From NCBI GenBank assembly GCA_022457155.1, contig JAJGOT010000166.1, forward strand, positions 1 through 64,000: a DNA stretch of 64,000 nucleotides. Reading direction: 5' to 3'. This stretch comes from Cladopsammia gracilis (taxonomy: Eukaryota > Cnidaria > Anthozoa > Scleractinia > Dendrophylliidae). The notes below the pieces were generated by a model. It was not told the origin of the DNA. It did no database searches and worked only from the letters and a program-made list of their open reading frames with translations. Shown here piece after piece: positions 1,435-62,362 of this stretch; position 1 is the stretch's first letter; every line of letters starts with the position of its first letter. The translations under genes were made by a program, and so were the position numbers.

Positions 1435-2360
1435 TCAACCAATGGATTCATACAGGTCTTGCCCAGGTCCCCTCAGGGGCTCATACACAGACTCCCTTTG
1501 CATACCTGGACTGTGTACAGCAGCATATGGTGCATCAAATGCAAGGGTTTGTTCATAAGCTGGGTTATCATGGGCTTCTGGAGAAATGGGTTCTTTTGGA
1601 GCACCCTGTTTTGATCCATCTGAATCTGGTCCATCAAGAACATTATACAACGGCTCATTGCTGGGACCAGCAGTGCCCTGTGTAACCAAGAGGCTCTTTT
1701 CAGCATCAGGGCCGTCAAGAACATTGTACAGAGGTTCCTGCGTTGTGTGAGCTCCAACCTCGAAAGTATCATGACTAGCTTCAGGCCCTTCAAGAACATT
1801 GTACAAGGGGTCATTGCGAGGATCGTGACTGTTGATGGGGGCATTTTTGGCATCAGGGCCCTCAAGCACATTATAGAGAGGATCCTGTTTAGTGCTTGGT
1901 CCATTTTTAGGTATGTCCTGCCTTGGGTCAGGTACTTCAAGTACATTGTACAGAGGGTCAACAGTTGGGGCCTTATAATCCTGACCTGAATCAGTCCCTT
2001 CAAGCACATTATACATTGGCTCTGGTGTGGTCCCTTGTCCTGTACCAGGTCCATCAAGCACATTATAGGCATTTTCGTGAGCAACAATGGGCCTGTTACT
2101 TGGTTGTCCTGTGGTAGTAGGTTTTGGTTTTGGCAACCCTGTGACACCATTAGCCTCAGAAGTTGGTATACCAGCAACACTTGTTTTTGCTTTGGGTTTT
2201 GGTTTTGGTAGATCTGTGGTATGTGCGGGTTCTGGCAGACCTTTGTTTAACCTCCCATACACAGGTGTCCTAGGAATCTGTTTGTCCAGGCTTTGGTATA
2301 CGGTGCAGTTATCATACTCATCATCAGCACTGCTGTATATAGCTGCTTCATTACTTTTTC
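1435..2360 (-). CDS. Gene A exon 8: terminal exon with seven YNVL repeats
   Basis: 926 nt, phase 1 in, ending at TGA (1435-1437). Acceptor follows a pyrimidine tract ending ccaccag. It encodes 307 residues: VYQSL and PVYGRL, a Pro/Lys stretch (two PKPKP motifs), then seven YNVL[ED]GP repeats 18-27 residues apart in Pro/Asp/Gly-rich linkers, then NPAY, SVYEPL and LYESI. The DNA repeat is imperfect, so the motif is kept while the linkers drift. Confidence 0.88.
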
Positions 2361-5300
2361 CTGGTGGGAAAAGGAAAGACAAGAAGAAAATAGGATTTTA
2401 TTTTTAAACTGAGTCCAACTTATCTCTCATGCTCATAGCCAGCTGTTATGCCTTTGCCCTACTGTACATGTAACATAACTATTAACTCCAAAACGCCTCT
2501 TAGAGAATGAGTAGCTATTAAACTAAGGTAAAGTTTTGCATGAGCCACAGGCTGCCCACTCGGCCACAGCTTAACCTGGTTTCTATAGCGTGAAGGAACT
2601 AGGGATATTGCTACTCCCCAATAGATGGGATGCTAGTCATTTGTAGGGTCTTCCACAGAATTTTGTCATCAGTACACATTTATACACCTGGGTGGAGAGA
2701 GACAATCAGGAGAACCAGATTAAAAGTTCAATATATGCACTAACCACTACACTGACATGCCTCTGCAATGAGTAACTAGTAGTTGTTAGTGTAATTATTA
2801 TTTTAATATTTATTAATTTATTCACTTGAAGGCATTCAATGCATCCAAATGTAAACACAGAACCTGAATTGCCAAGAAACATGTCAAATATTTGATGCTT
2901 GAAGCACCTTTATATAACTGAAGCTGTCACTCTCAAAGTGAATTAATATTGGCCATTTTGAGGTTGCGCATGAGACTGGGTCGATTTCGTTTCGAATTGC
3001 ACGATGGGGCTGTTTTGGGGGACGAAATTAAAATATGGCATCTGCTCAGGATGTAAACTGAAGCTGTGATCTTGTCAAAAATGGGTAAGTTTAGCTGTTG
3101 TGTACCTGGATGTAGCAACAACTGGAGAAATTCACCAACTTTCACACACTTTACCAAGTGATCTGAAAGTAAAAAAGGCGGATGTACGACTGATACAAAA
3201 TGCAACCTTGAAGAAGGATGCACCGCGCCGATGATTTGTGGAGCACATTTTCCAAGAGGAGTGAGGATGAGTAGAAATGAACTTCCTTCAATACTTCCCT
3301 GGCCTATCATCCCAAAGAAGCGCTGTGTTTTAGAGAAAACCCTTGCTGGGTATTGATGTTTACATCCTGAGCAGATGCCATGTTTGAATTTCGTCCCCCA
3401 AAACAGCCTCATAGTACAATTCGGAAAGAAATCGACCCAGGCACATGTACAATCTCAAAATGGCCAATATATACTGTATCTTACTTCACTTGGAATGAAA
3501 CTGTGCTTAAAGAGGGACACTCTCCCAGCTGAAATATCATGTTTTCATGATTATGGCTTGGTTTAAGCTTACTTTATTATATTGAAATTGGAAGAAACTA
3601 TCACTAAAAGTGATAGAAGCAAAGAAATATGAACTAAACAGACAAAATAACAGCTATAAAAGTCAAAATTTCACAAGAATGTCAAGTTTGCTTTATTGAC
3701 AGGCGGTCAATAAATCAAATTTCATGCACTGTATATCCACTTCAATCTTTGCAATCCTGCACTTTATCTCCAAACTACTGCTTTTGTTTTGCTCTATAGA
3801 ATATTTTTGTCCAACTAGGTTGTATATTTGGTGGTATTTAGCAATAAAACATGTAAATAAGCTAAGTGAAAGTTTGCTATTTCGCCAGGACAATGCCTCT
3901 TTAATGGGGCTACTCTGTACATGTATGTCAATAGATTTTGTTATCACTTTGAAAAGCCAAAAGGCTTAATAATATTATTATGTATCAAAGGAAATCTACA
4001 AATAATGTATAGATTGAAATGATAAGCTAGTAAAAATAAACAATCCTTGTTCAACTTACCATTGTCATCAATAAGGCTCTGATATGTTGGTTGGTTATTC
4101 TGTGCAATGGATGGCATGGTTTTACTTTCCTTTGGTGCTTCGAGTTGTATTGCATTTTCTGAGCTCCCATACACAGGGTTCTTAACTAAGATGAAAAATG
4201 CAATAATAAAAATAAATAAGTAACACATTTTTTATTTTTTAATAAATATCAAAAATATCATTTTCTGTGAAACAGAAATAGGGCGTGGGCATGTCACTTG
4301 AGTTTACAAATAACTTTTGATGCAATGTTTTAAGGTTTGCACATTTCTCTACTTTCCTTCAATGCTTTAATTGCCAGCCAAAACCCATTATTTATTTTAG
4401 TGAGTATAGTCAACACGGCCCCAAGTAGACAATACATGTATGTACAGTTGTACCATGGCTTTTTTTAATAGCTGTCTCGGATTCTTGAAAGAACCAAGAG
4501 TGATATCAAAAATGGTAATAAATATTAATATAAGAATACAAAGAAGCAACAGTACAGTTAAAATTTATTTGATTGTTGTGTTTTAAAAATGGCAAACTAT
4601 TATCAGACAACAATTAAATCTCACTTCTGTTTAAAATGTGGAGACAATAATTAAGATTAAACATGCAAAGGTAATGTACATGTAACTTTCATTGCACAAT
4701 TGTGAAAACAGTAAAAACAAATTAATGTGTAGGCCATTAGTTCTTTTACCTGGTTTGGTTTCATTTTCAGAGCTTTCCCTGGAATAAAATAAAATGTTAC
4801 AAAATAACTTTTAGATTACTAATTACAAGAAATTTATTCAGTGTTTATCACAAAATATGTAGATCCTCTGATCCCCTTCTGTAATCAAATTAACAGAAGT
4901 TTGCTTAAAATTAAATAAATGCAGCTTAATGTACATGCACAAATTTAAGAAAACCTTATCATACATGTCTACGGCAAAATAATATTATTTAATACTAATA
5001 TGGATGAAGTGAATATTGTTACAGGCTCCTAACCACTGAGCTTTCAAACCCTTGGGAGATATACTGTATAGCAGGCCTTAACAGGTAGATAGAGGGTAGT
5101 GGACTAAGTATGGCATCAGGGGGATAATATGAGAATTTAATAGGGAGAGTGGGTACTTTTATCTTGTGTTTTTAACAAAAAAAATTACCTATTGAAAAAT
5201 TTTAACTGCAACATAGACATCACTTTGGAAAGTAACCAGGGGCCAGAATCACGAAACCCTCCTAAGTTAATACATATCCTAAGTATTGTTTCTTAACAAT

Positions 5301-8300
5301 AGTCTATTGTCATTCCAACAATAGGCTATTGTTAAAAAACAATACTTAGGATATGTCTTAACTTAAGAGGGCTTTGTCAATCCAGCCCCAGATATTTATA
5401 ACAAAGTACAGTAGGTGGTGATTTTCACCAGCAACTGGCTATTTATGACAACCCTGAATTTTAGGAGACTCAGTCTGGCCGGACACTGTTATCATCACCC
5501 AGAGCTTTCAGCCAATAAGGTCATCATCTGGGAACCAAAGCATATACCGTTTTGCAGATATGGCAGCCATATTGATTTTGCCCCCAGGGCATGCCATAAT
5601 AACCAAAATTAATATTAATTGCTGCAAAGCAGCAGCTTTGCAGCAGACTATTTCGAAAGAACATGATGACGTCACGAACAACCAAAGTCCTGACAGAGGC
5701 AAAAAAATAATTAATATGTTTGCCACGATCGAACTTTGTCGTACAAAATGTCTCGATTTCGTGCATTCAGAACGGCCTGGAACGGGGTTGGAGAGAACAG
5801 CCTTGGCGCCATGATGGATTCCGCAATGCATTCCAAATGGATTTCACAATACAAACCGATTTGGTAAGTGAAAATATATCGCAACCGCTTATAAAGATGT
5901 TGCCAAAAAATGTTTATCAGAACTTTTATACAAAGCGTCGGGAAACTCTGTACTTCCTGTCGTTGAAAAATAAGGAACATGTTTCGAGGAAAAGCCAGCA
6001 AAACTGCATCTTCCGATCGCGGTGTAGTGAAGCTGCCCAGAAACTACAAGTAATGACACTAATCACAACAATCTAACTTATCGGCCTTTTTGGCCAACAA
6101 CTGAGAGGGCTCCGTGTATCAGTTGTGACATTTTTATTTTATTTTTAGTCACATCCCGGTTGTTGTGTGACAAGACCGTCCGTTTGGTTTGTTTACATAT
6201 TTTAAATGAAAACAATGAATTCGCGACGCCAAATTCGCAAATTTCTGTGCTACCGCTACAAAATATAATTTGAGAAAGCTTTAAGGATATAGCACCATTT
6301 TAATAGATTTTGGAATTTCCATGCATTGTGAGTAAATTGGGACTTTTAAACTGCTGACAAACATGACAGACGCGCTGCTCTAATCCGGGTCTAAACAAAA
6401 GTAATTACTTTGCTTTGGGATTTACGACACTAATGTGAAACTACTATTAAATATTAAGTATTACTTTGTTTTCAATGTTCAGTATGGGATGCCCTGGGGA
6501 CAAAATCAATATGGCTGCCATATCTGCGAAATAAGGTATGGTAGGAGAGACTGAGGACAACCAGCAAGGCAATAGTGAAGATGACGATTGAATATATGCA
6601 GGGGTAGAGACAAAGGAGTAGCTGGCCTAACTGTCTCATGTGTGGAGTGTCAGGCACCGTGCCCAACTTAAGCAGGGGTTTTAATAAGAACTGAAGTAGG
6701 CAGCAGGCCAAGGTATAATAGTTAGGCGGCTGTGATAGATAAGGGGCCATAAGGTCCCATCCCACTAGGGGATCTGGTAACCGGCGGTGAGAGGTGAAGT
6801 AGGAGGCGGCGCACCTCTGGTTGCTGGCTTCTATTGAAACCCCTGCTTAAATCTCGCCACTTAATAGGTTAATGGAACTGAACTGAATTTTATCAGACCA
6901 ATAAATAATAAATTATTGACTATTACGAATTATCTCTTTTGTCTAATTTAGACAAAAGAAACAATTTGTAATAGTCAACCATCAAGACTTGTTAACGATG
7001 TTCATATTTAATTTTGTGCATTCCTCTTACCATGCCTTTCTCCGTTTCCAAAACACAATGAAAATTATGACTAAAATTCCAAGAACAACAGCACCACCCA
7101 CAGTAGCACCAATTACAACTCCATTATCATTTCCACCGGTTTGTGTTCCTCTGTTACCTGGTCCACCATCAGCAGCAGACCTAGATGACACTGTTGTAGT
7201 GGTCTGAGAAAAAAAAACAACAAACAAGATTAATTAAATCAGTAGTGAACAGTGGCAGATCTTGACTCCACCGTAAGGGGGGAGGGTAGGGGGGAATAAG
7301 GGTGGGGGGGGGGGAATGTAAGAGACTGAACTTTTGAGGGGCTAGGCCCTTTCCCTGCCACTGGTGAATTAGTTACTGTAATCAGTAATTACTTAATACA
7401 CTGTACATGTAAATGGAGAATCAAAGAGCTCTAAGAGCCATCTCGTGAATACGAAACAAGGTAACAAGAGTATACCTTAAGAGTATACCTACCAATTGTC
7501 AAGGATTTTAAATAACTTGTTTCCCACAAAAAGAACATTCATTCTCTGATGAAGGCCGCGGTGTGCGACCGAAAATTTAGAAAAACTTTTAAACTTTTTA
7601 TAAAATTTTTAACAGGTCAGTTTCAAAACTTTTATTTATTATCATTATGAGCACTGATCGCCCGAACAACATTAAGGTTACAGATTGGTTTTAATTTTCC
7701 ATACTGAGTTTGAAGTCAAAGAATTGAAGAGTAAAACAGATTTAAAATGACCAAAACATCTTAGCATGGCATAATTATTAAATATGCATTGTGTGAAAAT
7801 TATGTGAACAAGACTGTCTGTAATACCCTGGGGAATTTAAAAAGTTTACAAATGATGTAGAATGAGTGAATCTGTCCCCATATGCTATATTATCTAGCTC
7901 AACGCTTTGTGTATTCAGGAGATAAAAAGAACAATGATAAATGACACATTATCCACCTTTAGAATGACCAGGACCAGGCCTTTAATACAGAGATGTCTGT
8001 CTTTTTAAAGGGTTCATACAGTCAGAGGGAGGAGTGACTGATCATGAACATGGACCTACCTCTGCTGGTTCTATCGGCACGATCACTGCACTGGTAGTTG
8101 CCTGAATTTGTCCAGTAGTTATCGCAGGTAATCTTGCAGTTTGACTTTGTGTCAAAGGGAGGAATGATGAATCTGACTGTGGCACTCCTAATGTTCCAGT
8201 ATTTGAAGTCAACACTAAGGATGGCGTTGGCAATGGCAATGGCAATGGTGACAGTGACGGTGACAGTGTTGATGATGCTGATGACGATGGTGGTTGATAC

Positions 8301-11300
8301 GGCAATAATGAAGATGATCGTGCCAGTGATGATGGCATACTGGTAGTTGATAGTGGTGACGATGCTGATGTTTGTAATAATGATGATGATGATGGTGATA
8401 CCGTCAATGACACTGACAATGATGATGATTTGGTCACTATTGATGGGGTTGCTGATAACAATGACACATGGGAACCAACAGGCGATGAATGACCAATATT
8501 TGTTGAAGAACTTGCAGGTGGAGCAGAATCTAAAATGAGAGACAAAAATAATACGATGTATGCAGGTTTGCAAAATCAACACACATTAAATTTTCCTTCT
8601 GAATTTATTTGTACTGATCTGGTCTCCAAATCTCTTTTTATTCTAGTTTTATAGCGAATCCCTTTCCACATATTAAACCAAACTGTTGAAGAGAAACAAC
8701 AAATTTGCAGTTCAAATTTTTTTTTTGGTTTAAAAATTTTTAAATCAGTTTGATTTTTGTTTTGGAAAATAAAAATTTAAACTGATTTGAAAACAAAGAA
8801 AATTTTGAACCACAACATACAACTGTATACTCCACAAAGAAATATTGGACTTTAACTACAAATTCAAACACACAAAATTAATTTACATTTACTTACAGGT
8901 CACAGGTCCTACTGCTTTTAAAAGAATACATCGTGTCAATGATGACGAAGTTGTTGTACAAGTGACAACAATGCGAATGATTCTGCCAGAATATTTTCCC
9001 TTATCATCTTTTTTCCACTGAAAGGACAGAAACAAGTCTGCAGCTACAGGTTGTATAATAACTTATAATATTAAATAATTTATTATAATTGATATACCAC
9101 ATGCGGTTTCTAAAAAAAGTGCGTGGGTCATCTATCTTCAACAGTGAACAAAACAGAAACAAATAATTTATAAACCTATACACTCAGACCTGTGCCACCC
9201 AAATTCACCCTTAACTACATGTAACCTAGTACTGACAGTCTACATCTCCAAGAACGTTATAATTTTTGGTCTCTCTTAACCCTTTAACTTCCAAGAGTGA
9301 AAAATATCAAAATTCAAGAAACATCCCAAATTTCATTTTGTAATTATATTGAAAAACAAATAGTACCACGCAAAAGTAACTAATAGTAGTATGAGATTGG
9401 AATCGGCAAGCATTGCAGCATCGTGTCATTTTTCTTCTGTGAATAGTTAAAAAAAAGCAAGCCGGCAAGAAGGATACAAAGTCCCAGTCTATAATTTGTT
9501 CACAAACATGGCCTTATGGAAACTTCAAGGTGGCTGCTAATTGAACAAGTAATCAGCGAGATGTCCGATACCTCCCTTTTCAAATCCAAACTTGGCTTTG
9601 CATTCGGCCTCGCTGATGTTTTCCTCCAAGTCAAAGTCTGCACGCACTCATAGTAACGCACCTCTAAAATTAATTATCTGACTTATTAGCCTCATACAGA
9701 ACCAAGAATTCTTCATCTTTAGCTAGTAGCTTTTCTGCATTAGTAATTTATAACAACCATTTTACGCAGATGCACTAAAGAGCGAAGCTGTTCTCCTTTC
9801 ACACATGCCAGCTCTTAACGTTAAAAGCTTCCCGCCAAGAACATCGTCATCAGCCCAGTCCTCCTTATGAAATTCTACCATCCTCGAGGTCAGCCATCCA
9901 GGTATCTTAAAGTCTCTATTATTTTACACTAACTGGCTTTTTGATGCTGGTAAATGGTGCTTCTCAGGAGTTCTGACTTACTGAATTCGCACAGTATTTT
10001 ACCTATTGATTTACTACTGTGTCACTAAAAGCAGTTGTTCAATCTTTTTTTTTTAAATTGTCAAGAAGCTCAGTATAGTACATGGTTGATTGCAAACATA
10101 GTGCAAAAGGACAAAGAAACAGCTACCTCCTGTGAGAATTTTACCGCATTTTCAGCAACAAAGAGCAACAAAATATCATTTTATCTGAAATGTTACGTAT
10201 CTGAACAATATTAGGTTTTTTATGCATGTAGCGAAGTTATTTTTCCGTTAACTTGTGACTTTCAAAGTGTTTTCCAGAGAGATCTTCAAGGTTTCATTCA
10301 AATCTCAGACGTTACAAAGAAATATTCAAATGTTCATTTCAGTCTTGTGGAAACTGGTCACGCGTGACAGAGCATGGCTGTAATACACCGTAATTGTTTC
10401 AGAAATAGAGAATAAAGTTTATCGAAAATTATCAACTTATCAACCATATAAGGAGCATTTAGCAATCAAATTTCTATTCAAACATTTCAAAACTGAATGT
10501 ATTATTTGAAACGACTAACGGGTTCAATAATATTCTCAAATAATTAACTCATTAATATAATCTAGGGAGGTACGCTTGTCCTGGCTCGACTGTAAACATT
10601 CACAAACAAGTATACCAAATGATTGACACACGTATAGCACTAATGGGTACAAGTAGAAATGGGAACGAAATTTGTAATGTAATGTAATGTAAAACCTTTA
10701 TTTAGACACGATTAGTGATTAAAGCTGTACAGCTTGTGGGGTCGTGTATAACTAAACTACGAAAGTATAACAAAAAGATAAAATAATACTTTATCTTTTT
10801 GTTATAAATTCCCGTGGAGGGTCACATATGTAAATGTGTGTTAGAATTTATACCTAGCTATCAAATAATAAAAATATTTGTTTAAAAGTTAAAATTAAAT
10901 ACAATGTACAGTTAAAAAAGTTAACAAAATTTGACTGATATTCATATACATGTAGCATTTTATTTAGTAATTTTTACAATAGCAAAGTATTGTTAGAAAT
11001 ATACAGAGTCATCATTGTGCTTAGGCTTGCACTGGTTTGAGTCGCATATTAAATGTCATTATTTTTTGAACTTACCTCTATTTCAAAACCTGAACGTCTC
11101 TTCACTTTAATTGTAAAGAAATTATCAGTGAGAGTTTTCCAATTATCCTGAAAGCCAGTGTAATCATAAACATAGTAGTTCCCACTGCAATTGACAACAT
11201 TGCTGACTGAAAATTCCTTTGTTTTACCATTGTTTGTCAAGACAACTGGGTAATTCAAAAGAGTTTGACGATTAAAATAACCGGCTTGTGCACAACGAAT

Positions 11301-14300
11301 TCCTGGAACAAAAGTAAGAACAATATTATTACATTTAGTACCTTTTAACAAGGGGTATCAAATGTAACCTGATATCCCTAAGTTATTAAAGGGGGTATGA
11401 TTTTGGACAATTTTTTTGGATTCCATAATCAACCTTGGTAATTTCCCGTGTGTTTCTGTTACTTTTCGGCACAACTAGTTGTAATTCCCAAGAAACTAAC
11501 TTTGTAGTAAGATCCGGTTATGTCATAAGCAGTTTGCGACATGTGGTTTATTTTAAGCTTTACGCAGATATTTTTAGCTTGACTGAATAGTTGCTTGATT
11601 TTATCTGTACAAGTTTGTTGAAAAATGAGGTGGTGTGCTATCCTACTTACAGTTGCTAGGTGCTGATGAGGAAGGGAATGGTTTTTGCGCCATGCAAAAT
11701 ATTGTGAGATGGTTCACAGGTAGAATGTTTCAAAATCACTGCAGTCATTATGCTGTATGTTACCGATATCTGGTATAGTTTTTGCTTAATGTTATATAAC
11801 AGTTGCTTTGTATACAAGATTTGAAAGTTTATAAGTTTTTAATAGGTCATTATATTTTTTGACTCGATTTAGGTGTCAATCAAGCGATCATTATCAATGT
11901 TGATTTTTGTTGTTGAATTTTTAATATTATTACACAGTTTATAATATATTCCCATTGATAGCAAAACCTAAAAGAGAAATACATTAAGAGCAGAGACGGT
12001 AATCTAACTACCCCCACAAAAATTTAATGGCTGACCCTAAATAGTGCAGCATTTTGAGTCTGCAAAATTATAATTTTCATCATGATGCAATGAGGTTGTG
12101 AATTTTCGGTTTTGCTGAGTTTGACTGAATCTGTCTGTGTGGACGAAGTCATCAGATTACACTGTATGATCCGTTTGCTATTTGATATACGTAATGGAAG
12201 AGATGGAAGCGATTCGCCAACTTCAATATTTCAGTGGAGGATTAGCTTTTTAGGATGTCAAATTGTTGAAAGAATGGTTTATCTTGTCTTGCTCTAAAAT
12301 AATCCATGATTCTTCAGTACAAGACTATGAGGAAAACATGGGGAGCAAAAACACAAAGCAAAAAAACGATTCTGGATGTTGAATTGTTGATTAGAAACAA
12401 TTTTTGACAAACTAAAACATGATGTGACTTGCGGAGAATCACATCTACCGCTCACAATATTTGAATGACTGTATTATTCCTAAAATAGTAGTCAAGGCTC
12501 AATTTCTTATTTTAGTTAGCTAACTAGGTCAGTGATAAACTTTCTCAAAATTGTGCAAGCTCACAAAAAAAGAAAGAAAAAGGAAAACCCCTCCATTCCA
12601 TATTATAATAGCAGATTTCACTTACATGCAAATCGATCAATTATTCCCATGCATACATATGTATACTGTAACGAAAATAAGAGGACATACCCTGTAGAGT
12701 ATATCTATTAGCAAAAATTGTGTTTGTAAGTGTCTATGAAATGAAGTTTTTTTCTTGGTTTTTCTGTAGTTTATTATGTCCAAAGAGCAAAAATAATATT
12801 AATATTATAACTATTTCTTGAGGAAAAGAAGGATTTCAAACCGTTTTTTTAGCCGCTCAAAGATGCATCACTTTGGTTGAAAAGTGGCTCCAATTTTTGA
12901 GAGAGAGCCTGGGGTGAGTGGGAGTGAGTGGTGATGTTAAAATAATGCAGAAAAGATGACACATTGGTTTGTTGACGGTATAATTCCCTTGGAATCCTTT
13001 ACCGTGATGGTCATTTTTGCCAACATTTTTGCCATACAAATGTCAGACAGCGCCTAATCTGTTTCTTTACAGTCACCTGAAGGCAAAGAGGATCAGTTTC
13101 AGATCACTCTTAACATTGTCTGACATGAACTCCACCCATCTGGAAACCCACAGAGGACCCCACAACAAAGCAGCAATCACCACCGGGAACAATTCCTTGT
13201 AGGCAATGCTTAATGGGCGCTGGGCCACAGACCATGAACCACAAAACCAGTGATCCTGAAAGAACGCTCCATAACCAAGGGTACCGGCAGCATCGGACGA
13301 AACTTGGAAGTCTGGTAGTGGAGTCCGTCCCGTGATTGCAGAAGCTCTTTCCACCACATCAAATTAAGGTGAAATTCCCGGTTAAGCCTGATGGGATGAT
13401 CATCCTGGCGGAAAGCACACAACAAGTTAATCATCCGTCGAAGGAAGGTTCGGCCATGAGAGGCCACCTTACAAGCATGGTGGAGATGGCCAATCAATGC
13501 CTCCAACTCCTTCTTCTTGCAGAAATGCTTTGAGCTCCATGACTCAACAAGACCTGCCAACCGCTGAAGTTTATCAGATGGGAGACAGCTTGTAGGTTGA
13601 CTGAATCCAACTCAATACCAAGGATGGTGAGGCAGGTGGTGGGACCGTCCAACTTATCCGGATGCAAAGGTAGGCCATGAGCCGCGCCACAATTAATGCA
13701 AGTAGATAGGTTGTGCCCACATACAGGGGAACCCGGCAGTCCCAAACTGATGAAATCGTCCAAGTAATGTTTTAGAAAATCAACCCCGTGATTGTGGATC
13801 AGAGACCATTCCACCAGATCAGCTATCGAGGAAAAAATGTAAGGCATCGAGCGTAAACCAAAAGGCAACACCATGTCGACATAGAAGCTGTCCTGCCACT
13901 TCATACCCAGTAAATAACAGTCATCTGGATGGATGGCAACGTTCCGATAAGCGCTCTCTACATCAAATTTTGCCAGAAGTGAGCCTCTGCCTTGCAGCAT
14001 AATCCCATCAATAAGGTCATCAACCGTGATGTACTGAACAGAGTATGGCTCTTTTGGAATACCATCATTGACGCTGTAACCCTCTGGGCTTGACAAGTCG
14101 AAAATCAACCTCCATTTACCAGGTTGGTTGTTCTTAGGAATAACACCGAATCGGCTAACATGAAGGTTAGGAAATGGTGGATCTGAGAATGGACCTGCAA
14201 TCCTGCCTTTCGACACTTCAGTAGCCAAATACTGATCAATTACTTGCGGGTTGCAGGGGGATGAGATCATGTTGACTGAAGCTGACCTTAACATAAAAGA

Positions 14301-27438: not shown

Positions 27439-27848
27439 CTACATACTGTACGAACGTTTCCTCCCAGACTCCTCAGTAATGTTCTTCTTCCACGGCAAAG
27501 AGTATAAAGGATTATTGTCAATTTTAAGAATCACTGGTGGTTCAAACGGTTCCTCTGGGTTTTCATCTGCAGGACGAGGGTCGCGGGTTTCGTTGTTATC
27601 TTCATCAAGTTCACTGCGCACTGGTTCAGGCTTCTCAGTAATGGTTTTCTTCAATGGTACCGCGTATGCAGGGTTCTCTTCCGTGTCAAGAATCACCGAC
27701 GGTTCAAGCAGTTCCCCCGAGTTTTCATCTGTAGTGCGGGGGTCACCAATTTTATTGTTATCTTCGTCAAGTTCACCGTTCGCTGGTTCAGGTTCCTCCA
27801 GTACATTATAGTCGTGGTCCACAGATTCATCAAGAACCTCATCTGACC
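27439..27848 (-). CDS. Gene B exon 10: terminal exon with YNVLEEP, NPAY and NPLY
   Basis: 410 nt, phase 1 in, ends at TAG (27439-27441). Carries DYNVLEEPEP and two copies of an internal unit: ENPAYAVPLKKTITE, then NNPLYSLPWKKNITEE, joined by ELDEDNN...DPR...DEN. Its first part is duplicated at 29471-29598. Confidence 0.8.
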
Positions 27849-51110: not shown

Positions 51111-51112
51111 TA

Positions 51113-51294
51113 GGGAGCTTAAGCAATGAGGACGGCAACGCCAAGGAAAACGTCACTTGAAAAAAGGATTCGCGTTATTTTAAACTACTTTGCAATTGTT
51201 CCAATTTGTTTAATTTGTCTAATACAACTGTATTGTCCAGGAGATAAATTTGTAGGGTCAGCCTTTTTAAGTGATAGATAAGGCTTGCCATTGT

Positions 51295-51330
<36 letters not shown>

Positions 51331-52870: not shown

Positions 52871-53283
52871 CAACTTTACATGAAACTAAATGGTGTTTAC
52901 TGATAACTGTACTGAAAGCATAAAATGTCTCTTGCGCGCAAATGAAACAAAACCAATTCTAACCTACTGAAGGATCTGTCTCATTAAAAACGCGGGCCTA
53001 ACATTTTTTAGTTTGTTCAAACTGCAATACCTTCACGGGTTTCTGTCATTTATCGAGTACATTCTCGCAATGCTCTTTAAAATCAAAACACTATTGTTGG
53101 GTCTCCTGTGGGTTCCTGTGTGTTTGAAATCCTAGTTAACTGCAAAAAATGCTGAAAGAAGAACCCATAAACTTCACTTCTGCCGTTCACACCATCGACA
53201 TCGAGTTAGTCAGAGATTGTTCTAGGGACGATTTCAGTGTGAACAAGGCTTAAGTAAACGTTTGAAAAAGCAAATTTAAACAA

Positions 53284-53668
53284 TTAAGGGGAAACAGTCC
53301 CGGCTGAAATATCGTGTTTTGATGGCCAGGAGCTTGCTTTATTATCTTGAAATAGGAAGAAACCATCGCCAAAAGTGATAGAAGCAAAGAAATATGAACT
53401 AAACAGACAAAATAACGGCTAGAAAGTCAAAATTTCACAAGAATGGCAAGTTTGATTTCTTGACCGCCTGTCAATAAATCAAATTTCATGAACTGTAATC
53501 TATTTTAAACCATGTAATCCTGCACTTTTATCTCCAAACTACTGCTTTTGTTTCACTCTATAGAATCTTTTTATCCAACTAAGTTGTATATTTGGTGGCA
53601 TTTGGCGATATAACGTGGAAATAAGCAGAGCGAAATTTTGCTATTTCGGCGGGACAGTGCCCCTTTAA
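53284..53668. mobile_element. ~390-bp MITE family, copy with clear TIRs
   Basis: ttaaggggaaacagtcccgg at the left, gggacagtgcccctttaa at the right. Best-preserved member in the window. Confidence 0.75.
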
Positions 53669-53896
53669 ATCACAACTGGGCAACGGCAGCAAACATGAAT
53701 GATGTAATGAACCAACAGAAAGCAAAGAAAAACCCTTCAAGCGTGCTGCACAGGTGATTTTTGATGTGATTTAAGATGACATTTTTGCTTTGCTGACGTC
53801 ATAAAATATCGCAAAAACCTACATTTTCGTGTGAGCGCGCCTCAAAATTTGTCTGTGTTAAAAAGGCTAAAGGATGCTCTCGCAGCGACAATGATT

Positions 53897-54292
53897 TTAT
53901 GGTGTTGTATCCGGGCCCTCCAGGACCGCATACATAGGGGGCTCAAAACACTGATTTATGATACCATTGGATTCCGAATCAGGACCCTCCAGGACATCAT
54001 ACACGATACCACCCGGACAAGCATAGTCATTACTGGGTCCCTCAAGCGCATTATACACTGGTGACGCATAAGATGGGCCCTGATCGGGGCGCTTGTTAGA
54101 GCCCTCTTTTGCTGAGATCTCCTCAAGTTCGTCCAAGTCTGCATAGTCGGCATATTCTGGAGACTCTTCAGCGTCCGCAGGGGGTGGGCCAGTGGAGTAT
54201 GGAGGTTGGTATTCTGGGGGGGAGGGTGAGATGTTTCTTGGGCTTTCATTGGGATTGAGCAGGACTAGGTATTCTGGAATATCGTCTTGGCA
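53897..54292 (-). CDS. Gene C exon 10: terminal exon with three Y-x-[VA]-L-E-G-P repeats
   Basis: 396 nt, phase 0 in, ends at the stop at 53897-53899; acceptor tttcag. EYLVL, then a Pro/Tyr-rich part with SPPEYQPPY (a PPxY motif), an acidic part with EYADYADLDELEE, then VYNALEGP, IVYDVLEGPD and MYAVLEGPD close to the C-terminus. Confidence 0.85.
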   Translation of the reverse strand, partial: CQDDIPEYLVLLNPNESPRNISPSPPEYQPPYSTGPPPADAEESPEYADYADLDELEEISAKEGSNKRPDQGPSYASPVYNALEGPSNDYACPGGIVYDVLEGPDSESNGIINQCFEPPMYAVLEGPDTTP

Positions 54293-57200
54293 CTGAAAGA
54301 AAAACACAGTTAAACCAGTTTGTTTTCGTCCGGTTATGGTTTAAGGGTACTTCCAACCTTCGCGGCTGTCCCTTGGTAAAAAAATTAGATATTCAATGTT
54401 ATGATTGGTTAGCGAGATACAGAGCAGTTTTCAATTGAGTGTCGAAAGTAATGACACAATTGCTTTGGTTTTGCATTGCTACGCTTTGTGATTGGCTACA
54501 AAATGTCGCGCCACTTTCTCGACCAATCAGAAGTAAAACCAAAACCAATCGTGACTTGCTCGCACGCGTTTTCCCGCGCTTGGCGCCGCCGACATGCAAT
54601 TGCTTCGAGCTCTGATTGGTTCATTGGATTGTTTACGACTGGTGTGATTGGTCAGAGTAATTACTTTGGTTTTAGTTTTACGACACTCAATTGAAAACTG
54701 CTCTATAGTCTAAAGTTGGAGAAGCTAAAAACATGCGATACGTGTTGCGTAAAGGATCGCCGCGGGAAAAATATTTTAAATACATCAAAATTTCCTGACA
54801 CGGTGTTGTGGATTGATCCATTGTGAATAAATCTGTACAGCTATTTCGTTCTTGCCGCTGTATTTGATACCCGAAAAATTTAATTCAGCAACCCTCGATC
54901 GTTTGGCGGTTTCTTGGCTCCTGGTCGTTCGTAAAGAAAACGTCACTATAATTTAAGTTTTTTTATGTTGATACTTTGTCAGATTACTCTTCAAACTGGC
55001 GCGTATAGGTGGTTTTCACGTTACGTCACGGCGGCCATGTTGGTGCACACATGAAAAGCATTTTAATGAACTTCTTTTGTTATGTGCACCAACATGGCCG
55101 CCATGGCCTTTGTCATTTGAGTCCCACAGGACTGAAGGTCACGTGAGTGAAAACCAGCAATACGAACTTTTTCCGAAGAATACCCGCGAAGGTTGGACGG
55201 AGTGCCCTTAAGTACAGCGGGATGAACAAAGGAACCAATGAATGCATGAATGGTAGGGCTCGACCTTAACTTTTGTTATTAGTAGGCTTATGGCTAGTAA
55301 AATGGTGGTTCTTACTGGCCAAAGAGCTCTTTCTACTATCCATGAAAATTTCAGTTAAAGTTAGTAATTACCCTAGTTTTGAACAATTGGCATCAAATGA
55401 CACTTATGAAAGAAGAATGAAAATTAGAGGACGAAAAAAACCTCTTTTATCCATTGAAGATCGTTGAAGCGTGTGAACAACAACATGGCGTTCACTTGCG
55501 ATCGAAGTGCGAGATGGGAACACTTGGATACAGTCCCCAGCTGAGTTTTGCTTCATTCTTTTTTCTTTCTTCATAACATTGTGCCACAATTGTGTCAGCA
55601 CTAAATTTATCTTTTGCAGTTGACAAAGAAATTTGCCTCCATAATTTTAGTAGTCAACATGGCTAGTAACTAAGGAATTTCACTAGCCAAAAGTGAAAAT
55701 CCAGTGGTATTTGGCGAGTTGACCACCGCCAATGTCGAGCTCTGAATGGTTTGAAGAACGCAAAGAAGGTTGAATGGCATGACTAAATGGCATGTGGACG
55801 AATGGACGAACAGACGGACAAAATGACATTCAGGCGGAGGGAGGGAGGGAGATGTGAATGGATGAATGGACGGACCGACGGAGGAACGGACGGATACTGA
55901 TGGATGGATGATTGAACGAACGAACGAACGAACGAACGAACGAAGAAAAGAAATGGACGGATGGACGGTCGGAAGGTCGGACGGTCGGACGGTCGGACGG
56001 TCGGACGGACGAAAGGAAGGAAGGAAGGAGAAAGGGAGAAAAAAAAGGGAGTGATAAAACAATGGCGGGAGGGAGAAGGAAAAGAATGAACGAAGCAACG
56101 AATGTCTGCATTGATAAATGCGCGTTAAAAAGAAGTCTGTTACTACCCACCTTATGCACAGTGTTTTTCTGCAAAGGCTGGTACATCATTCCATCAGAGT
56201 TTAAACTCTGATATACTGCTGCATTTGGATTAGAATTAAACTGCGCACGTGCATCCTCCTTTATTAAGCTCTGATAAACAGGTTTCTCTCCATCCAGTGC
56301 ACATCCTGGATTATCGTAAACAGGTTTTTCTGCATCCTTTGTTCCTTTTGCACAACGCTCGGCACTAGCATAAGTGTTCTCTCTGTGAATCTTCCTACTT
56401 GCAGTGTTCAGTGGCTTCATCCTTTTATTGTTAAGTGGTGTGCTCCGAGCATCTTTTGCTCCTGGCTTATTTAGCAGCAGATCTGCAGCTCCATCGTGTG
56501 AGAGATCTCCTGAAAAAACAACAACAAATAAGATAAATTAGCAGATAGGCGGCAAGTTCTACTCAAGCATATGCACACTTTTTACTCCTTAAACCAATTG
56601 AAAGTTGGTGGTTTCATACTAGGGCGTCTTAAGGATTAAGACGGCACAACTTTTGCCAACAACTGCCGCATGCAACTTGCTCACGCCATACATACGACAC
56701 GAATCGCGTCGTCTTAATCAGCCTACAACTCCTTCACAGCTGTTGCATGCAACACGAAAAACGTTGTAGGATTTTGAAACATCTTTTAAAATCTTACGAC
56801 AATCATAGCCACATACAATGTTATATGATGCGAGTTGTATGCAATTTTCGCCTGACGCAAACAGCGCGCGCTACAAAACATCGCATGCGACAAAGTTGCG
56901 TCGTGTAAATCGGCCTTAACCTACTTTGAATGTGAACAGGTAAAATGCACATGTATACAAAGACGCTGAAGTTCGCCGCCAAGTATGATCTACACCACAC
57001 TTGAGAAGGCACTTGACCAATGGGACAACAGAAACTGACTGAAAGACACGTGCAGCGGCGCAAAAAAATGATTGATTGACATTCGGCTTATGTTCTAAGT
57101 AATACACTTTCTCATCAGGTATGCACCCCAATTTTCTGAAGTGTTACATGAGAATCTCAAGTGTGCTTGAGTCAAGCTCTTGCTTGAGTCAAGCTCGTGC

Positions 57201-60200
57201 TTGAGTCAAGCTCGTGCTTGAGTCAAGCTCGTGCTTGAGTCAAGATCTTGCTTGAGACATACTCAGCTTGTAGTGTGAAACCAACAATTCACATGGCAAT
57301 TCGCACCCATGTTGCGCTAAAAATCGTCGTTGCGAATCGTCCCGCGTAACATCACCTTTACGTTCTCATTTAACTGATAAACTATGACTTTTTTTATAAA
57401 ATTTTCCACGCTTTCATATTGGTTACGCGACAATACGTAAACACGGGTTGGTTGACCCCGTTTTATAAAGTAAACAGAATTCATAATCAATAAGAAACAG
57501 ATACATAAACATTGACGTTAAATTGGAAAATGTAAGTAATAAAATTCTTGTCATGTCGTAAGCTGAGCTGACTCACCCATGAGTCCAACCGCGGTTTTGT
57601 GGGCTTTTTCTTCAGGTTCTGCATACACAGAGTCATCAAATATTGGATTTTTCAGCAAGCCGGGCATTGGGAAGTGATTCTACATGAAAACAAAATAATT
57701 CCTTTAAGGATTTCTACCACTTTGAAATATCATACTTCGATCCATGTAAAGATATCAATTTCATCTTCAAAGTAAAGAGTGAAGACATCAATATATTCAC
57801 GTCAAACGTCAAAAGTGCTAAAAGTTGTTGTTCTACAATCGAAACATTTTCGGATCTTCTTCGGAAACCTTCGGAAAATTTCTCGAAATGATGCGGAAAC
57901 GTTTGTACAACCTTCGGACAGTATTCGGAGAATTTTTGAGAATCTTCGGAAAACTCCATGCTTAAAATTCGTAATAGGCCATTTGCACGATGACGTCATT
58001 TGACTACTACCAGAATCCTTCAGTTTTTTGTTTTGTAGTGCAAATTAGGGCTATTGTTATTTAAACCGCACTGGGATTACAAAATTTAAATAAGAAAGGA
58101 AAAACGAAATGAATTCTGGTAGTAGTAGTCAAATGACGTCATCGTGCAAATGGCCCATTAGTTCAACGACAAGGGTAGATGAACCACAGCTTAGACGATC
58201 TAATTCATCATTCGGGATATATTTGGAAGAGCGAATCAGCTTTATGCTATCAGCCAATGAAATGAGGAGGATTTTAATTAACACTTACCTGCGATCCCGT
58301 TGTCGGGTTTGCAATGACTAAAATAGAAACAAAGCAACAAAGAATGAAACGAAAGAAAGTGAAGCTAAAAAGACAAAGGTAAACAAAGCTATGCTTATAT
58401 CAGGCTTGTAAAGACTGTAAGTTTACACATTTACGGTTTAATAAGTGAGTTTAGGAGAATTTGAAAGTTCGTCAAGCAGACAGATGGCAACAACTATAAT
58501 GTATGTGCTGATGTAAGAACCAATTCTTACAACTTTTTTTAAGAAACAAACGTGACAATTTTGATTCATCTCCAGAGTGAATAAAAAACAACGTCCTAAA
58601 AAAAACGTCCTGTGTTCTCTTTCTCCATAAAACCTATAATTTTATCATTTGACGTTTGTTAATCATTTATAGTGCTAGCCCCTGAAGAAGCTTTGTTTTG
58701 CAAAGCGAAATATTGGGCACTATTATATTTATACTTTTATTTTATTTTATTTGCTTCTGCTTCTCTTTGTCTGCCGTAAGGATCAGTTTGCTGTTTTTTT
58801 TTTTTTGCTTCACTTCAAGTATTAATACTGATCTAGGTCTGGAAACCAGATCCGGCCATTCTCAACGGTTTGTTGCAGTGATAGTGCATTCTATGTTTCT
58901 CAAACTCTTGAAAGCATTTTTAAATTGTAGTTTCCTTTGAGCGGCGATGAAGTTTTTACCCGCAAACCAAAGCAGCGTTTTTCTTCAACCTTGGATTTTT
59001 TGCTTACCTTTCAAAATCAACGAATATTGAATTATTATTGGTAAACTTTCTGCACATCACAGAGCTTTTCGGACCCGAAACGTCTTCGGGACCTTTGAGG
59101 GACGCACGTCTGGAGAGGGGCCAGCGAGCCATTAAGCTTGGTTCCCACTAGCGACGTAAGCGGAATCGTAAACGGAATCGGAATCGTAAGAACCTTACGA
59201 TCTAGTGGAAATCAAAACGACGGAAGCGGCTAGTAAGCGACGGAAGCAGAAGCGGAATCGGAAGAAAAAGGAAACCTTCTGATCCTTCCGATTCCGATTC
59301 CGTCGAGCTTCCGATTCCGATTCCGACTCCGAAAACAATGCACGTGCGCTTTTCATGTTGGTACATTTCTTTTCATGCCGTTCCCTGCAAAACTGACAAC
59401 AACGTCAAATGATAAAATTATAGGTTTTATGGAGAACGTGAACACAGGACGTTTTATTTTCCTTTCTCTATTTGAACTTAAAAGCCATTCGTACAAATTC
59501 AGCTCCTGGACAATCCAGTCACATTAGACAAACTAAACCAATTAGAACAACTGCAAAGTAGTTTAAAATAGAGCGAATTATTTTCTCATGTGACGTTTTC
59601 CTTGGCGCTGCCGTCATCGTTGCTTAAACTCCGTACAACTGCCAGTGACCTGAACAGATACGTATTATAAAAGACACTGTCATGTATGTTAGTCAATTAT
59701 CATGCCCAAAATTACAAGGTAAGGGCATTGGTGTTGAAAAAGCGAATAGCGCGTTGTGTGTGGTTTTAATATATCGAACGGTGGAGCTCAGTCGGTTATT
59801 GGTGCAAACATGGTGAGGATTAAGAGTGCTGATTTGGAAGATGATTTTTTCTCTCTCGATTTTTGCGGCTTTCCGTGTTGCCCTGGTGCAGGGAAAGGCC
59901 GCAGATTGCCATGTACTGTTTAGAATGATTGGGGAGCCGTGAGATTAAATTGGTGCATTGGTGTTGTGTCTTCTAAAGCCTGGTTTCCATATAATCGAAA
60001 CGATCGCAACGATCGCAGCGATCGTTACAGCCTGGTTTCCATATAATCGCAACGATCGCAGCGATCGTTACGATTACGATCGCAGAGATAGAAAAATAGA
60101 AAAAATTCTATCTCTGCGATCGTAATCGCAACGATCGTAAGGATCGCAACGTTTTGGTTTCAATATGATCGCAAGGGTCGTAAGAATCGCAGCGATCGTC

Positions 60201-62362
60201 GATCGTAACGATCGATCGCTGCCATCGTTGCGATCGTTGCGATTATATGGAAACCAGGCTTACGATCGACGATCGCTGCGATTCTTGCGACCCTTGCGAT
60301 CATATGGAAACCAACCGTTGCGATCGTTGCGATTGCGATCGCCGAGATAGAAAAATTTCTATCTCTGCGATCGCAAATGCAACGATCGCAACGGTTGGTT
60401 TCCATATGATCGCAAGGGTCGCAAGAATCGCAGCGATCGTCGATCGTTACGATCGCTGCGATCGTTGCGATTATGTGGAAACCAGGCTTACGTTACTTTT
60501 ACAATGAACGTTGGAATGTGTCGTTATGATATGAAATGACCTTTAATATATGCAAAATACCTGTTGTTCCAGCACCATAATTTGCAAGATTTCTGCAAAA
60601 CAGAATGCAAAAGTCAACGAATTTGGGGAGTGACAAGATTGTTCTAGGAATGCGTTTGTTTAGTAATGAATCTCCAAGAGCCTTTAGTGACCCACATCGG
60701 TATCAACTAAGCCCAGTTCTTACACAAGATACTGGGTGTCTATAGCACGAAGCATTTTTAATTCTGGCATTTCCAGGAGGGTTATGGTAAAGTCCCACAT
60801 GAGCCACATAACACTCACAGGACACCCACTCAGCCAGAGTTTTCCCCCAGCATTTTGTCAGTGGTACCAATATAATATCTGGAATGTGTAGTTCAGTTTC
60901 TTGTCTAAGAAAATAACATGACGTCCGAGATCAGGCCTCGACGAACCAAAACCTTCAGATGTTAAAGTTTGTTTAAAACTGTTAAATTGTGCTGCAATTT
61001 TGCAACTTACAGGTCATTGATTTGCTGCTTAGATACCTTTAACAACAAAGAAACATTCAGTATTTGCTAAAAACCTTTTCAGAGGCGGGCTGACTCCTGG
61101 GTGGAGATGGATGACGTAAAAGTGTAAAACAAAGTTTCTTGACTATCTAGTAGTTACCTGTTTTGCCTTCTTTTACAAACAACGAGCCACATACACAGTA
61201 AAATAACAGCCACACAGATTACAGCTGCCACGCCTGCAATTATGCCGATCATTGTACCGTTATCTATCTCTTGCTTGTTACTCAATTTGTTTCCATCCTT
61301 CTTAGGTTCTCTTGTACCACCTGGATTATCATTTGTCGGAGTCTCTGTTGAAGGCTTTGTTGTAACTGCTCCAGTTGTTACTTGTTTGGAGAGCGGAGCC
61401 TTGAGATACAAATGCAGTGATCAGTGCAACATTTTTCTGTGATCAATCCTACTGAATCAAGTATATATGTACTATTGATCCAAAACAACCAGTTTCCTGT
61501 TGGTTTTCATTCTGTGGTTACCCAAAATGAGGAGAAGGAAGGATGCAAGTGGAGAACGTGGAGAAGAAGGAGAAAGGCCGGGGCGGGAGGAGGAGACAAA
61601 GAAGAAGTGTATAAAGAGGAAAAGGGAAGATGGAGATGGCATCAGTAAGTACGAAGTAATGCTTCTGCAAGACAATAAAATTCTAGTACGTATAATACAC
61701 CACAAAAGGTTGTGAGGTATATTAATCTGCCAGAATGCCATTTATACTTTTGTCTGGAGCAAGGTGGGGTATATGGCCGTTTTGCAAGTCACAGAGCAAA
61801 ACACATTACTTTTGTAGTTACCTTTGTTGGAGATGTTGTCTTAATGGTTGTTGCTGTTAATTTTGTTGTTGACTGGACTTGTGTTGTAGCTTCTGTAGTT
61901 GTTGTTTTTGTTGTGGTGGAAATTGTACTAGTAACCGAACGTGCTTGAATTGGGAGATTTGGAAAGTTCCCTGTTGTATAATAAAATTAAAGTGTAACAG
62001 AAATGAACTGAAAACTTGAAAAATCTATTTTCTCTTTCACTCCCCTTTACCTTCTTTGAATGCCAAAAAATAACTTTCAATAATGGCAAAATAAATTTTT
62101 ATGACTCCTCTTCAAGCAAAAAAAAAATTTCAACATAAAACATGTACTGTTTAAAAGCATTCACTTATAATGCCGTCACAGTTTATAGTTTATAGTTTAT
62201 AGTTTTATCTCGAACTGTTAATTTCCACTTACATGTAAGTGTGCCTTTTGTTTTGAACACAACACAGAAGTCCTCTTTTTTACATGGGTTCCTTCCTTTG
62301 CGACATCTACCATTAATTTTCATGATATAGCCAAAGTATGAGGATGGCATGTTTCCTGTCCA
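53897..62362 (-). CDS. Gene C: third paralogue, 5' part beyond the window (8 exons seen)
   Basis: Exons 62233-62362, 61822-61970, 61158-61399, 60561-60592, 58289-58317, 57577-57679, 56151-56509, 53897-54292. They give 1440 nt in frame (479 residues plus stop) counted from exon 3. The signal-peptide exon and exon 2 were not found between 62363 and 64000, so they probably lie past the right edge. Seen: conserved ectodomain exon, Thr-rich stalk, long juxtamembrane linker, helix about 143-167 of the partial protein, CKRRQN stop-transfer, then a 300-residue tail. The tail has NYGAG, SVYAEP, PVYDNP, PVYQSL, AVYQSL, MYQPL, EYLVL, PPEY, VYNALEGP, IVYDVLEGPD and MYAVLEGPD. Same intron phases as A and B in the shared part. 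Confidence 0.75.
54422..54703. mobile_element. Family-1 MITE, full copy in gene C intron 9
   Basis: gagcagttttcaattgagtg to cactcaattgaaaactgctc; 130 bp from the gene C exon 10 acceptor. Confidence 0.84.
55009..55156. mobile_element. 148-bp MITE
   Basis: gtggttttcacgttacgtca...ggcggccatgttggtgca pairs with tgcaccaacatggccgccat...gtcacgtgagtgaaaacca. Confidence 0.66.
55860..56045. repeat. Compound tetranucleotide microsatellite
   Basis: (ggac/gatg)n, (gaac)n, (ggtc ggac)n, then (aagg)n. Begins about 105 bp from the gene C exon 9 donor, within intron 9. Confidence 0.92.
56151..56509 (-). CDS. Gene C exon 9: tail segment with YQSL repeats
   Basis: 359 nt, phase 1 in and 0 out; acceptor tttcag, donor gtgggt. 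Motifs KPVYDNP, KPVYQSL, AVYQSL, MMYQPL, resembling the YQSL sites of gene A exons 7-8. If the donor is ignored, the frame runs into a tetranucleotide-repeat region, which argues for splicing here. Confidence 0.76.
56620..56920. repeat. Probable MITE with cgacgc/gttgcat interior
   Basis: ggcgtcttaaggattaagac near the left, cgtcgtgtaaatcggcctta near the right, cgcatgc and gttgcatgcaac palindromes inside. Ends are not clean. Confidence 0.4.
57163..57255. repeat. 17-bp palindromic minisatellite
   Basis: Five to six tandem copies of gtgcttgagtcaagctc; each unit itself contains the palindrome cttgagtcaag. Confidence 0.9.
57577..57679 (-). CDS. Gene C exon 8: tail segment with SVYAEP
   Basis: 103 nt, phase 0 in and 1 out; acceptor atgtag, donor gtgagt. 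NHFPMPGLLKNPIF then DDSVYAEPEEK. Confidence 0.7.
57977..58155. mobile_element. 179-bp MITE with ~45-bp arms
   Basis: ggccatttgcacgatgacgt...catttgactactaccagaat pairs with attctggtagtagtagtcaa...gacgtcatcgtgcaaatggcc. Sits 134 bp from gene C exon 7. Confidence 0.78.
58289..58317 (-). CDS. Gene C exon 7: 29-nt mini-exon
   Basis: Phase 1 in and 0 out; acceptor ttttag, donor gtaagt. Encodes VIANPTTGSQ. Supported only by splice sites and by phase fit with both neighbours. Confidence 0.58.
59134..59332. mobile_element. Family-2 palindromic MITE, left-hand copy
   Basis: aagcttggttcccactagcg through repeated gaatcgg/ccgattc to gattccgactccg; the right end is missing. Confidence 0.68.
59350..59633. 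mobile_element. Partial copy of the gggagcttaagcaa MITE
   Basis: cgtcaaatgataaaattata...gagaacgtgaacacaggacg to gtgacgttttccttggcgct and catcgttgcttaaactcc; inverted relative to 51113-51728. Confidence 0.65.
59977..60488. mobile_element. CGATCG-rich palindromic MITE, tandem/nested copies
   Basis: agcctggtttccatataatc at 59977 and again at 60028; the complement ttatatggaaaccaggct ends at 60259 and a variant ends at 60488. The interior is runs of cgatcg[ct][ga]acgatcg with a central hairpin of ctatctctgcgatcg. Probably one element plus a second that abuts it. Confidence 0.72.
60561..60592 (-). CDS. Gene C exon 6: 32-nt mini-exon
   Basis: Phase 2 in and 1 out; acceptor ttgcag, donor gtattt. 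Encodes NLANYGAGTT. Same place and phase as the mini-exons of A and B. Confidence 0.66.
60593..61157. other. Gene C intron 5, unassigned
   Basis: No repeat or coding signal noticed. Confidence 0.4.
61158..61399 (-). CDS. Gene C exon 5: juxtamembrane linker and transmembrane helix
   Basis: 242 nt, phase 0 in and 2 out; acceptor ctcaag, donor gtaact. Linker of about 48 residues, then MIGIIAGVAAVICVAV and a CMWLVV helix end, followed by CKRRQN. Confidence 0.82.
61822..61970 (-). CDS. Gene C exon 4: Thr-rich stalk
   Basis: 149 nt, phase 1 in and 0 out; acceptor caacag, donor gtaact. About 50 residues, over a third Thr. Confidence 0.75.
62233..62362 (-). CDS. Gene C exon 3: conserved ectodomain segment
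   Basis: 130 nt, phase 0 in and 1 out; acceptor catcag, donor gtaagt. W...SSYFGYIMKINGRC...C..EDFCVVFKTKGTLTC, with four Cys. Homologous to exon 3 of A and B. Confidence 0.8.

Follow-up and report, generated by a model that had tools for sequence, protein, structure and literature searches.

Tandem coral genes for predicted type I membrane proteins join a Shavenoid-like N-terminal module to tyrosine-rich tails

What kind of protein pairs an unfamiliar extracellular head with a long, tyrosine-rich tail, and why should a coral carry several such genes side by side? The question is raised by a 64,000-nucleotide stretch of Cladopsammia gracilis DNA (assembly GCA_022457155.1, contig JAJGOT010000166.1, positions 1 to 64,000 of the forward strand), which we call the window. 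Three minus-strand genes, A, B and C, lie in tandem there, and an earlier reading of the DNA letters alone (the sequence-only reading) had described them as clustered type I receptor paralogues. We find that they most likely encode tandem coral type I receptors that act in phosphotyrosine-docking signalling or in ligand uptake; for receptor signalling in general, we put the probability at roughly 0.6. The observations behind this reading are the anatomy of the genes, a match of the head to the Pfam family Sha_B_N (PF23328, Shavenoid isoform B N-terminal), an enrichment of tyrosine motifs in the tail and the conservation of the tail tyrosines.

Anatomy of the tandem genes

Minus-strand splice sites were scored with generic metazoan matrices, open exons were then enumerated, and exons were joined GT-AG. 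Gene A comprises eight exons from an ATG at 18775 to a stop at 1435 (intron phases 1,0,1,0,2,1,1) and encodes 797 residues in 2394 nucleotides (nt), stop included. Gene B comprises ten exons from an ATG at 45310 to a stop at 27439 (phases 1,0,1,0,2,1,1,0,1), giving 2013 nt through the donor at 45070 or 2028 nt, 15 more, through the donor at 45055. Gene C, as rebuilt, runs through six exons from 62362, the start of its third exon, to a stop at 53897 (1305 nt; phases 1,0,2,1,0). The gaps between the genes measure about 8.66 kilobases (kb; 18775 to 27439) and 8.59 kb (45310 to 53897), as expected from the spacing of about 8.6 kb first proposed. The proposed lengths of A (2394 nt) and B (2028 nt, with donor 45055) were also reproduced. 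The 1440 nt proposed for C was not: the 135 nt needed to reach it were searched for and not found. Phases 1-0-1-0-2-1 up to a mini-exon (29 nt in A, 41 nt in B, 29 nt in C) are common to A and B. The phase ladder claimed for all three genes is thus complete in these two, and C shows only its 1-0-2-1 portion, from exon 3 onward.

A complete protein is predicted to consist of a signal peptide, the Sha_B_N module, a cysteine-bearing module encoded by exons 2 and 3, a stalk, one helix and a long tail. The exons of the three genes are as follows, with splice scores and E-values.

18454..18775, minus: A exon 1, signal peptide and Sha_B_N; ATG 18775, donor 7.1; PF23328 9.1e-6 (whole protein), 1.8e-7 (exon piece); P0002 tblastn 3.8e-18
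11076..11302, minus: A exon 2, start of the unmatched ectodomain module; splice score 14.9; P0002 tblastn 1.5e-11
8897..9017, minus: A exon 3, SGRII...C...C; splice score 8.5; P0002 tblastn 3.6e-5
8060..8529, minus: A exon 4, Ser/Thr/Pro stalk; acceptor 5.0, donor 5.1; P0002 tblastn 5.4e-12 (part of the exon)
7031..7203, minus: A exon 5, stalk end, predicted transmembrane helix and KRRK stop; splice score 11.7; P0002 tblastn 2e-22
4750..4778, minus: A exon 6, 29-nt mini-exon; splice score 10.1; 6 of 9 residues identical in P0002, no tblastn match of its own
4060..4185, minus: A exon 7, 126-nt tail exon with NPVY and YQSL; splice score 9.4; 32 of 42 residues identical in P0002, tblastn 3.1e-15
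1435..2360, minus: A exon 8, tail with seven YNVL, YQSL, YGRL, NPAY, YEPL, YESI, stop; acceptor 7.5; P0002 tblastn 1.2e-152; 31 homologues aligned
45070..45310 (alternative donor 45055), minus: B exon 1, signal peptide and Sha_B_N; donors 5.3 (45070) and 7.7 (45055); PF23328 1.5e-6; P0001 tblastn 1.5e-17
43045..43289, minus: B exon 2; splice score 8.5; P0001 tblastn 1.7e-12
41616..41742, minus: B exon 3, SGHII...C...C; splice score 10.3; P0001 tblastn 1.7e-11
39055..39203, minus: B exon 4, Ser/Thr stalk; acceptor 4.2, weak donor -1.9; no P0001 tblastn match
38035..38165, minus: B exon 5, predicted transmembrane helix; splice score 6.8; weak P0001 tblastn 0.062
36569..36609, minus: B exon 6, 41-nt mini-exon; splice score 15.8; no P0001 tblastn match
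34280..34645, minus: B exon 7, tail with a His-rich stretch; splice score 8.5; P0001 tblastn 1.1e-10
33543..33784, minus: B exon 8, tail with YQGL, YQRL, YESL; splice score 8.3; P0001 tblastn 4.1e-28
30250..30310, minus: B exon 9, YQVL; splice score 10.5; weak P0001 tblastn 0.11
27439..27848, minus: B exon 10, YNVL, NPAY, NPLY, stop; acceptor 6.2; two P0001 tblastn alignments, 1.1e-8 and 8.9e-13
62233..62362, minus: C exon 3; splice score 9.7; weak family-profile E 0.0059
61822..61970, minus: C exon 4, Ser/Thr stalk; splice score 6.8
61158..61399, minus: C exon 5, stalk, predicted helix and CKRR stop; splice score 5.6
58289..58317, minus: C exon 6, 29-nt mini-exon; splice score 11.8
56151..56509, minus: C exon 7, tail with YQSL, YQSL, YQPL; splice score 12.0
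53897..54292, minus: C exon 8, YLVL, YADL, YNALEGP, YDVLEGPD, YAVLEGPD, stop; acceptor 4.3; blastp of its open reading frame (ORF) to the A tail ORF 9.5e-6; P0002 tblastn 0.003

Two proteins from outside the window are colinear with these models. P0001, the 731-residue hypothetical protein ABFA07_012415 of Porites harrisoni, was found by searching with an early gene B model of 447 residues, and its alignments located B exons 7 and 9. Its tblastn matches to six of the ten B exons (1, 2, 3, 7, 8 and 10) have E-values of about 1e-8 or lower, those to exons 5 and 9 are weak, and exons 4 (stalk) and 6 (mini-exon) have none. Because P0001 follows B from signal peptide through tail at 31-71% identity exon by exon, we regard it as a distant orthologue or paralogue. 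P0002 (816 residues) was recovered among at least 31 further proteins by a search with an alignment of A, B, C and P0001. It covers seven of the eight A exons by tblastn, each at 4e-5 or better, and contains the counterpart of the 126-nt exon 7, which the first model of gene A lacked. Its short contig (longest 3.7 kb) suggests that P0002 is transcript-derived. Since external proteins cover most exons of A and B, we rejected chance exon assembly for these two genes. A homologue search with the B ectodomain alone returned nothing, P0001 included, an absence whose meaning is weakened by the word filter of that search and its limit of about 8000 candidates. Likewise, P0001 was not among the listed matches of the alignment search in which it was itself a query row, so absence from those matches is weak evidence.

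Head and tail of the predicted proteins

The sequence-only reading knew of no described family with this ectodomain. For the first module, this view has to be abandoned: Sha_B_N matches A at 26.3 bits (9.1e-6), B at 28.8 bits (1.5e-6) and P0002 at 30.3 bits (5e-7), all above the curated cut-off of 24.4. The match covers a cysteine-rich segment of about 60 residues at the N-terminus, behind the signal peptide. The Pfam scan of the window used a model of A that lacked exon 7 and one of B that lacked exons 7-9, and the full-length relatives P0001 and P0002 were scanned as well. When exon-1 pieces of A, B, P0001 and P0002 were searched at E up to 10, all four matched Sha_B_N (best 9e-9; A 1.8e-7). 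None of ten shuffled pieces with the cysteines held fixed did so (three each from A, P0002 and B, one from P0001), and the match is therefore not due to cysteine spacing alone. Two other families, FdhE_C (0.01) and Macin (0.023), each matched just one of the four pieces and were set aside.

Only the module encoded by exons 2 and 3 is left without a convincing match. In A, B, C, P0001 and P0002, these exons match no Pfam family at E up to 10, and a PDB profile search with them gave nothing convincing; its matches to a peptidase (E 0.0078) and a histidine kinase (0.56) were judged chance. The ectodomain of B alone found no PDB profile at E up to 1. Five residues of exon 3 (G, I, C, C and G) are kept across A, P0002, B, P0001 and C, which bears out the proposal of a conserved third exon. 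The head had also been earmarked for a hidden Markov model comparison with Alr, immunoglobulin (Ig), lectin and F5/8 folds. We ran this comparison with Pfam, and it matched Sha_B_N and none of Ig, lectin or F5/8; heads of these three kinds were rejected on that ground. At the sequence level, Pfam showed no Ig domain in A, B, C, P0001 or P0002 at E up to 1, and a sequence search of the five exon 2-3 pieces showed none at E up to 10.

Outside the head, the proposed Ser/Thr stalk, single helix with basic stop and tail rich in YxxL/I were supported, and in our scans of the five proteins no Pfam family rose above its own cut-off in stalk, helix or tail. MGC-24 in B (1.5e-5; 25.8 bits against a cut-off of 28.5) and P0001 (0.0017), and Adeno_E3_CR2 in C (1.3e-5; 25.2 bits against 36), fall below their cut-offs and were set aside as matches to stalk or helix composition, as were the weaker sub-cut-off matches.

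The tails are enriched in tyrosine motifs. Compared with the mean of 1000 composition-keeping shuffles, YxxL/I occurs 12 times against 1.75 in A, 5 against 1.23 in B and 8 against 1.51 in C. The broader sorting motif YxxPhi is enriched less (A 13 against 2.92, C 8 against 2.36, B 5 against 2.14), and A and B each contain two NPxY motifs, where fewer than 0.2 are expected, while C contains none. Most of the seven YNVL copies of A sit in an E/DP-LYNVL-E/D-GP context. The spacing of the immunoreceptor tyrosine-based activation motif (ITAM), YxxL/I-x(6-12)-YxxL/I, is found twice in A (shuffles 0.04), once in C (0.05) and not in B. The context of the inhibition motif (ITIM), [ILVS]xYxx[ILV], is found three times in B against 0.44 (reached by 0.006 of shuffles), once in A against 0.59 and once in C against 0.40.

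The tyrosines are also conserved. We aligned the last exon of A with P0002-P0032 (31 rows), keeping the 291 of 307 columns that were filled in 15 or more rows. Conservation is 91% at the 16 tyrosines, against 55% in the 275 other columns (Mann-Whitney p 1.9e-6), and 88% for Leu/Ile at Y+3 (11 sites), against 42% for Leu/Ile elsewhere (19 sites; p 0.0012). These p-values are indicative, because the rows were found and aligned partly via the motifs and are related by descent. The tyrosine of the NPAY motif of A is kept in 31 of 31 homologues. The tail exon is widespread, since clusters of its homologues comprise as many as 183 sequences.

Between A and P0002, conservation differs along the protein. 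Exons 1-3 are 44, 49 and 58% identical, the stalk 74%, the helix exon 81% and the last exon 80%. With gap columns excluded, 104 of 216 ectodomain positions are identical (48%), compared with 434 of 556 in the rest (78%; Fisher p 2.6e-15), or 329 of 414 (79%) once the stalk is left out. A folded head less conserved than a low-complexity stalk is an unusual order and, at the level of sequence, would fit diversification of the head.

Gene C and the DNA around the exons

No ORF of at least 25 codons between 62362 and 64000 matches the exon 1 or exon 2 profile at E up to 10, so C is either cut off by the window or incomplete. Its exon 3 scores hardly better against the family profile (0.0059) than another ORF (0.0092). 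Both observations favor a truncated pseudogene or a wrong exon chain, in which case the cluster would have two real members here. We consider this unlikely: C has six open exons whose order and phases are as expected, a 29-nt mini-exon like that of A and a tail related to A (blastp over 63 residues). Moreover, the window ends 1.6 kb upstream of C exon 3, and the second introns of A and B span 2.1 and 1.3 kb. We accept C provisionally on its exon order, phases, mini-exon, stalk, helix and tail. Accordingly, the proposed cluster of type I receptor paralogues stands firmly for two genes and provisionally for the third. Assembly without frame conflict holds for A and B, through their exon chains and the colinear external proteins, and is not confirmed for C, whose exons 1 and 2 were not found in the window.

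Several features lie within or beside the exons. Intron 1 of gene A contains a retroelement with a reverse transcriptase ORF (13497-14405, minus strand; Pfam RVT_1 4.2e-10), flanked by ORFs at 13213-13611 and 14781-15698 with no Pfam match at E up to 0.01. If left unspliced at 33543, B exon 8 stays open to a stop at 33501, giving a shorter tail without exons 9 and 10 and their YQVL, YNVL and NPxY. A 409-base direct duplication, 94% identical (27769-28174 and 29519-29926), includes the start and acceptor of the last B exon. In the copy at 29598, the reading of that exon is kept for 23 codons (SDEV...EPEPAN) and diverges beyond them; the copy may be an alternative exon or a decoy. Intron 6 of B holds a perfect 70-copy GGAA array (36223-36502).

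The remaining repeats are scattered. One of about 250-300 bases, in both orientations and 79-96% identical, sits in introns and between genes (21001-21247, 33126-33374, 35669-36191, 52032-52323, 52596-52829 and 54415-54713) and has no Rfam match. A second (3566-3904 and 53331-53668) is 87% identical over 340 bases and has a related fragment near 50.2 kb. Between B and C lies a 54-copy hexamer array with 91% matches (49567-49887). Rfam and tRNA scans of the window gave no matches, and a viral-contig scan found no relative.

Signalling, uptake or recognition

How might such a protein act? We propose that a stalk, probably O-glycosylated, displays the two cysteine-bearing modules, which may be held by disulphides and would bind an extracellular ligand outside the cell. 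Clustering could then allow Src- or Syk-type kinases to phosphorylate tyrosines in the tail, which is probably disordered and carries 5 to 12 YxxL/I motifs and up to two NPxY. The phosphorylated tyrosines would dock SH2 proteins, and the YxxL and NPxY motifs could also recruit adaptors for uptake.

Several observations weigh against this reading. As a whole protein, P0001 scores 18.1 bits (0.0032) for Sha_B_N, under the Pfam cut-off, and outside the window the head is seen only in P0001 and P0002. Among the at least 31 proteins, a precomputed Pfam domain is present in P0002 alone, and the majority of the others examined are single tail exons, so a wide spread is evident for the tail and not for the head. 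Most motif spacings exceed that of a classical ITAM, and A and C show no enrichment of ITIM context. The earlier label of ITIM/ITAM-like tails is therefore only loosely apt: YxxL/I is enriched in all three genes, ITIM context only in B, and ITAM spacing is absent from B. The contrast between head and rest is a protein-level result from a single pair, and the A/P0002 stalk differs by a further 48 gap columns outside the identity figure. B and P0001 show no divergence specific to the ectodomain (head 52, 43 and 71%; stalk 49%; helix exon 43%; mini-exon and tail 31-67%). The diverging ectodomains of the sequence-only reading are thus seen in A and not in B.

Of the alternatives, the one that survives best, itself unlikely, is an endocytic or scavenger receptor that internalises particles, symbionts or mucus with little signalling. 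YxxPhi is a sorting signal for AP-2, and NPxY recruits PTB adaptors. Both motifs exceed expectation here, YxxPhi less so than YxxL/I, and the invariant NPAY tyrosine of A agrees with such a role. However, seven YNVL copies would seem to exceed what sorting presumably needs, and C has no NPxY.

Doubtful as well is the proposal, partly overlapping with the signalling reading, that these are hypervariable receptors for allorecognition or for microbes, acting like Hydractinia Alr or vertebrate ITAM receptors through another ectodomain. The paralogues are clustered, the A/P0002 ectodomain is less conserved than the rest, the tail tyrosines are conserved, and amplified coral gene families are described as mostly receptors thought to serve self/non-self recognition (PMC10236652). 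Yet the divergence rests on one protein pair, without a counterpart in B and P0001, and a paralogue whose 3' half had been homogenised by gene conversion would look the same. Hydractinia Alr1 and Alr2 are likewise clustered cnidarian membrane receptors, with tails of 200-250 residues whose motifs are reported to resemble phosphorylation sites (PMC7563517). Their family is defined by Ig V-set/I-set ectodomains; because no Ig domain was found by sequence, the coral proteins do not appear to be Alr members, and a role in allorecognition is possible by analogy.

Vertebrate and invertebrate receptors with ITAM or ITIM tails, such as oyster CgIgIT2 as described in PMC11999971, have the type I layout and YxxL/I in common with the coral proteins. 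In the latter, however, canonical ITAM spacing is confined to two pairs in A and one in C, with most copies wider apart, neither A nor C is enriched in ITIM context, and the ectodomain has no Ig match. A bolder suggestion, which we hold to be rather improbable, is that a fast-diversifying head of Sha_B_N and a novel cysteine module on a conserved multi-YNVL tail forms an undescribed coral receptor design. It would serve self/non-self or symbiont recognition in place of the Ig-type Alr of Hydractinia and reuse a module of arthropod hair formation.

Least probable is a Shavenoid-like organiser of actin-based surface protrusions (microvilli, collar or cnidocil) that binds no ligand: the Sha_B_N match and the requirement for sha in Drosophila actin hair formation, where mutants are reported to lose or malform their hairs (PMC4346269, PMC9375228), speak for it, but the match is confined to the 60-residue N-terminal module, exons 2-3 have no Pfam match, stalk, helix and tail have none above its cut-off, and homology over one small cysteine-rich module carries no function across phyla. 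In the Pfam comparison, the likeness to insect Shavenoid, above the cut-off in A, B and P0002 and below it in P0001, stops at that module, and sha itself is described as insect- and arthropod-specific (PMC9375228).

The receptor reading sits in a familiar genomic setting. Tandem expansions of receptor genes are reported to be numerous in coral genomes (PMC10236652), which makes clustering by itself unremarkable. A protein that pairs a Sha_B_N head with a multi-YNVL tail seems new; no report of this pairing appeared among the matches listed in the open-access literature, judged by titles and abstract openings, and no cnidarian-titled paper stood among those listed as mentioning shavenoid. To our knowledge, few of the molecules behind allorecognition and symbiont recognition in corals are known. 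The family described here offers a testable candidate for recognition or uptake receptors, and its combination of a conserved tyrosine tail with one unusually divergent head makes it a concrete candidate for recognition that can be tested in populations.

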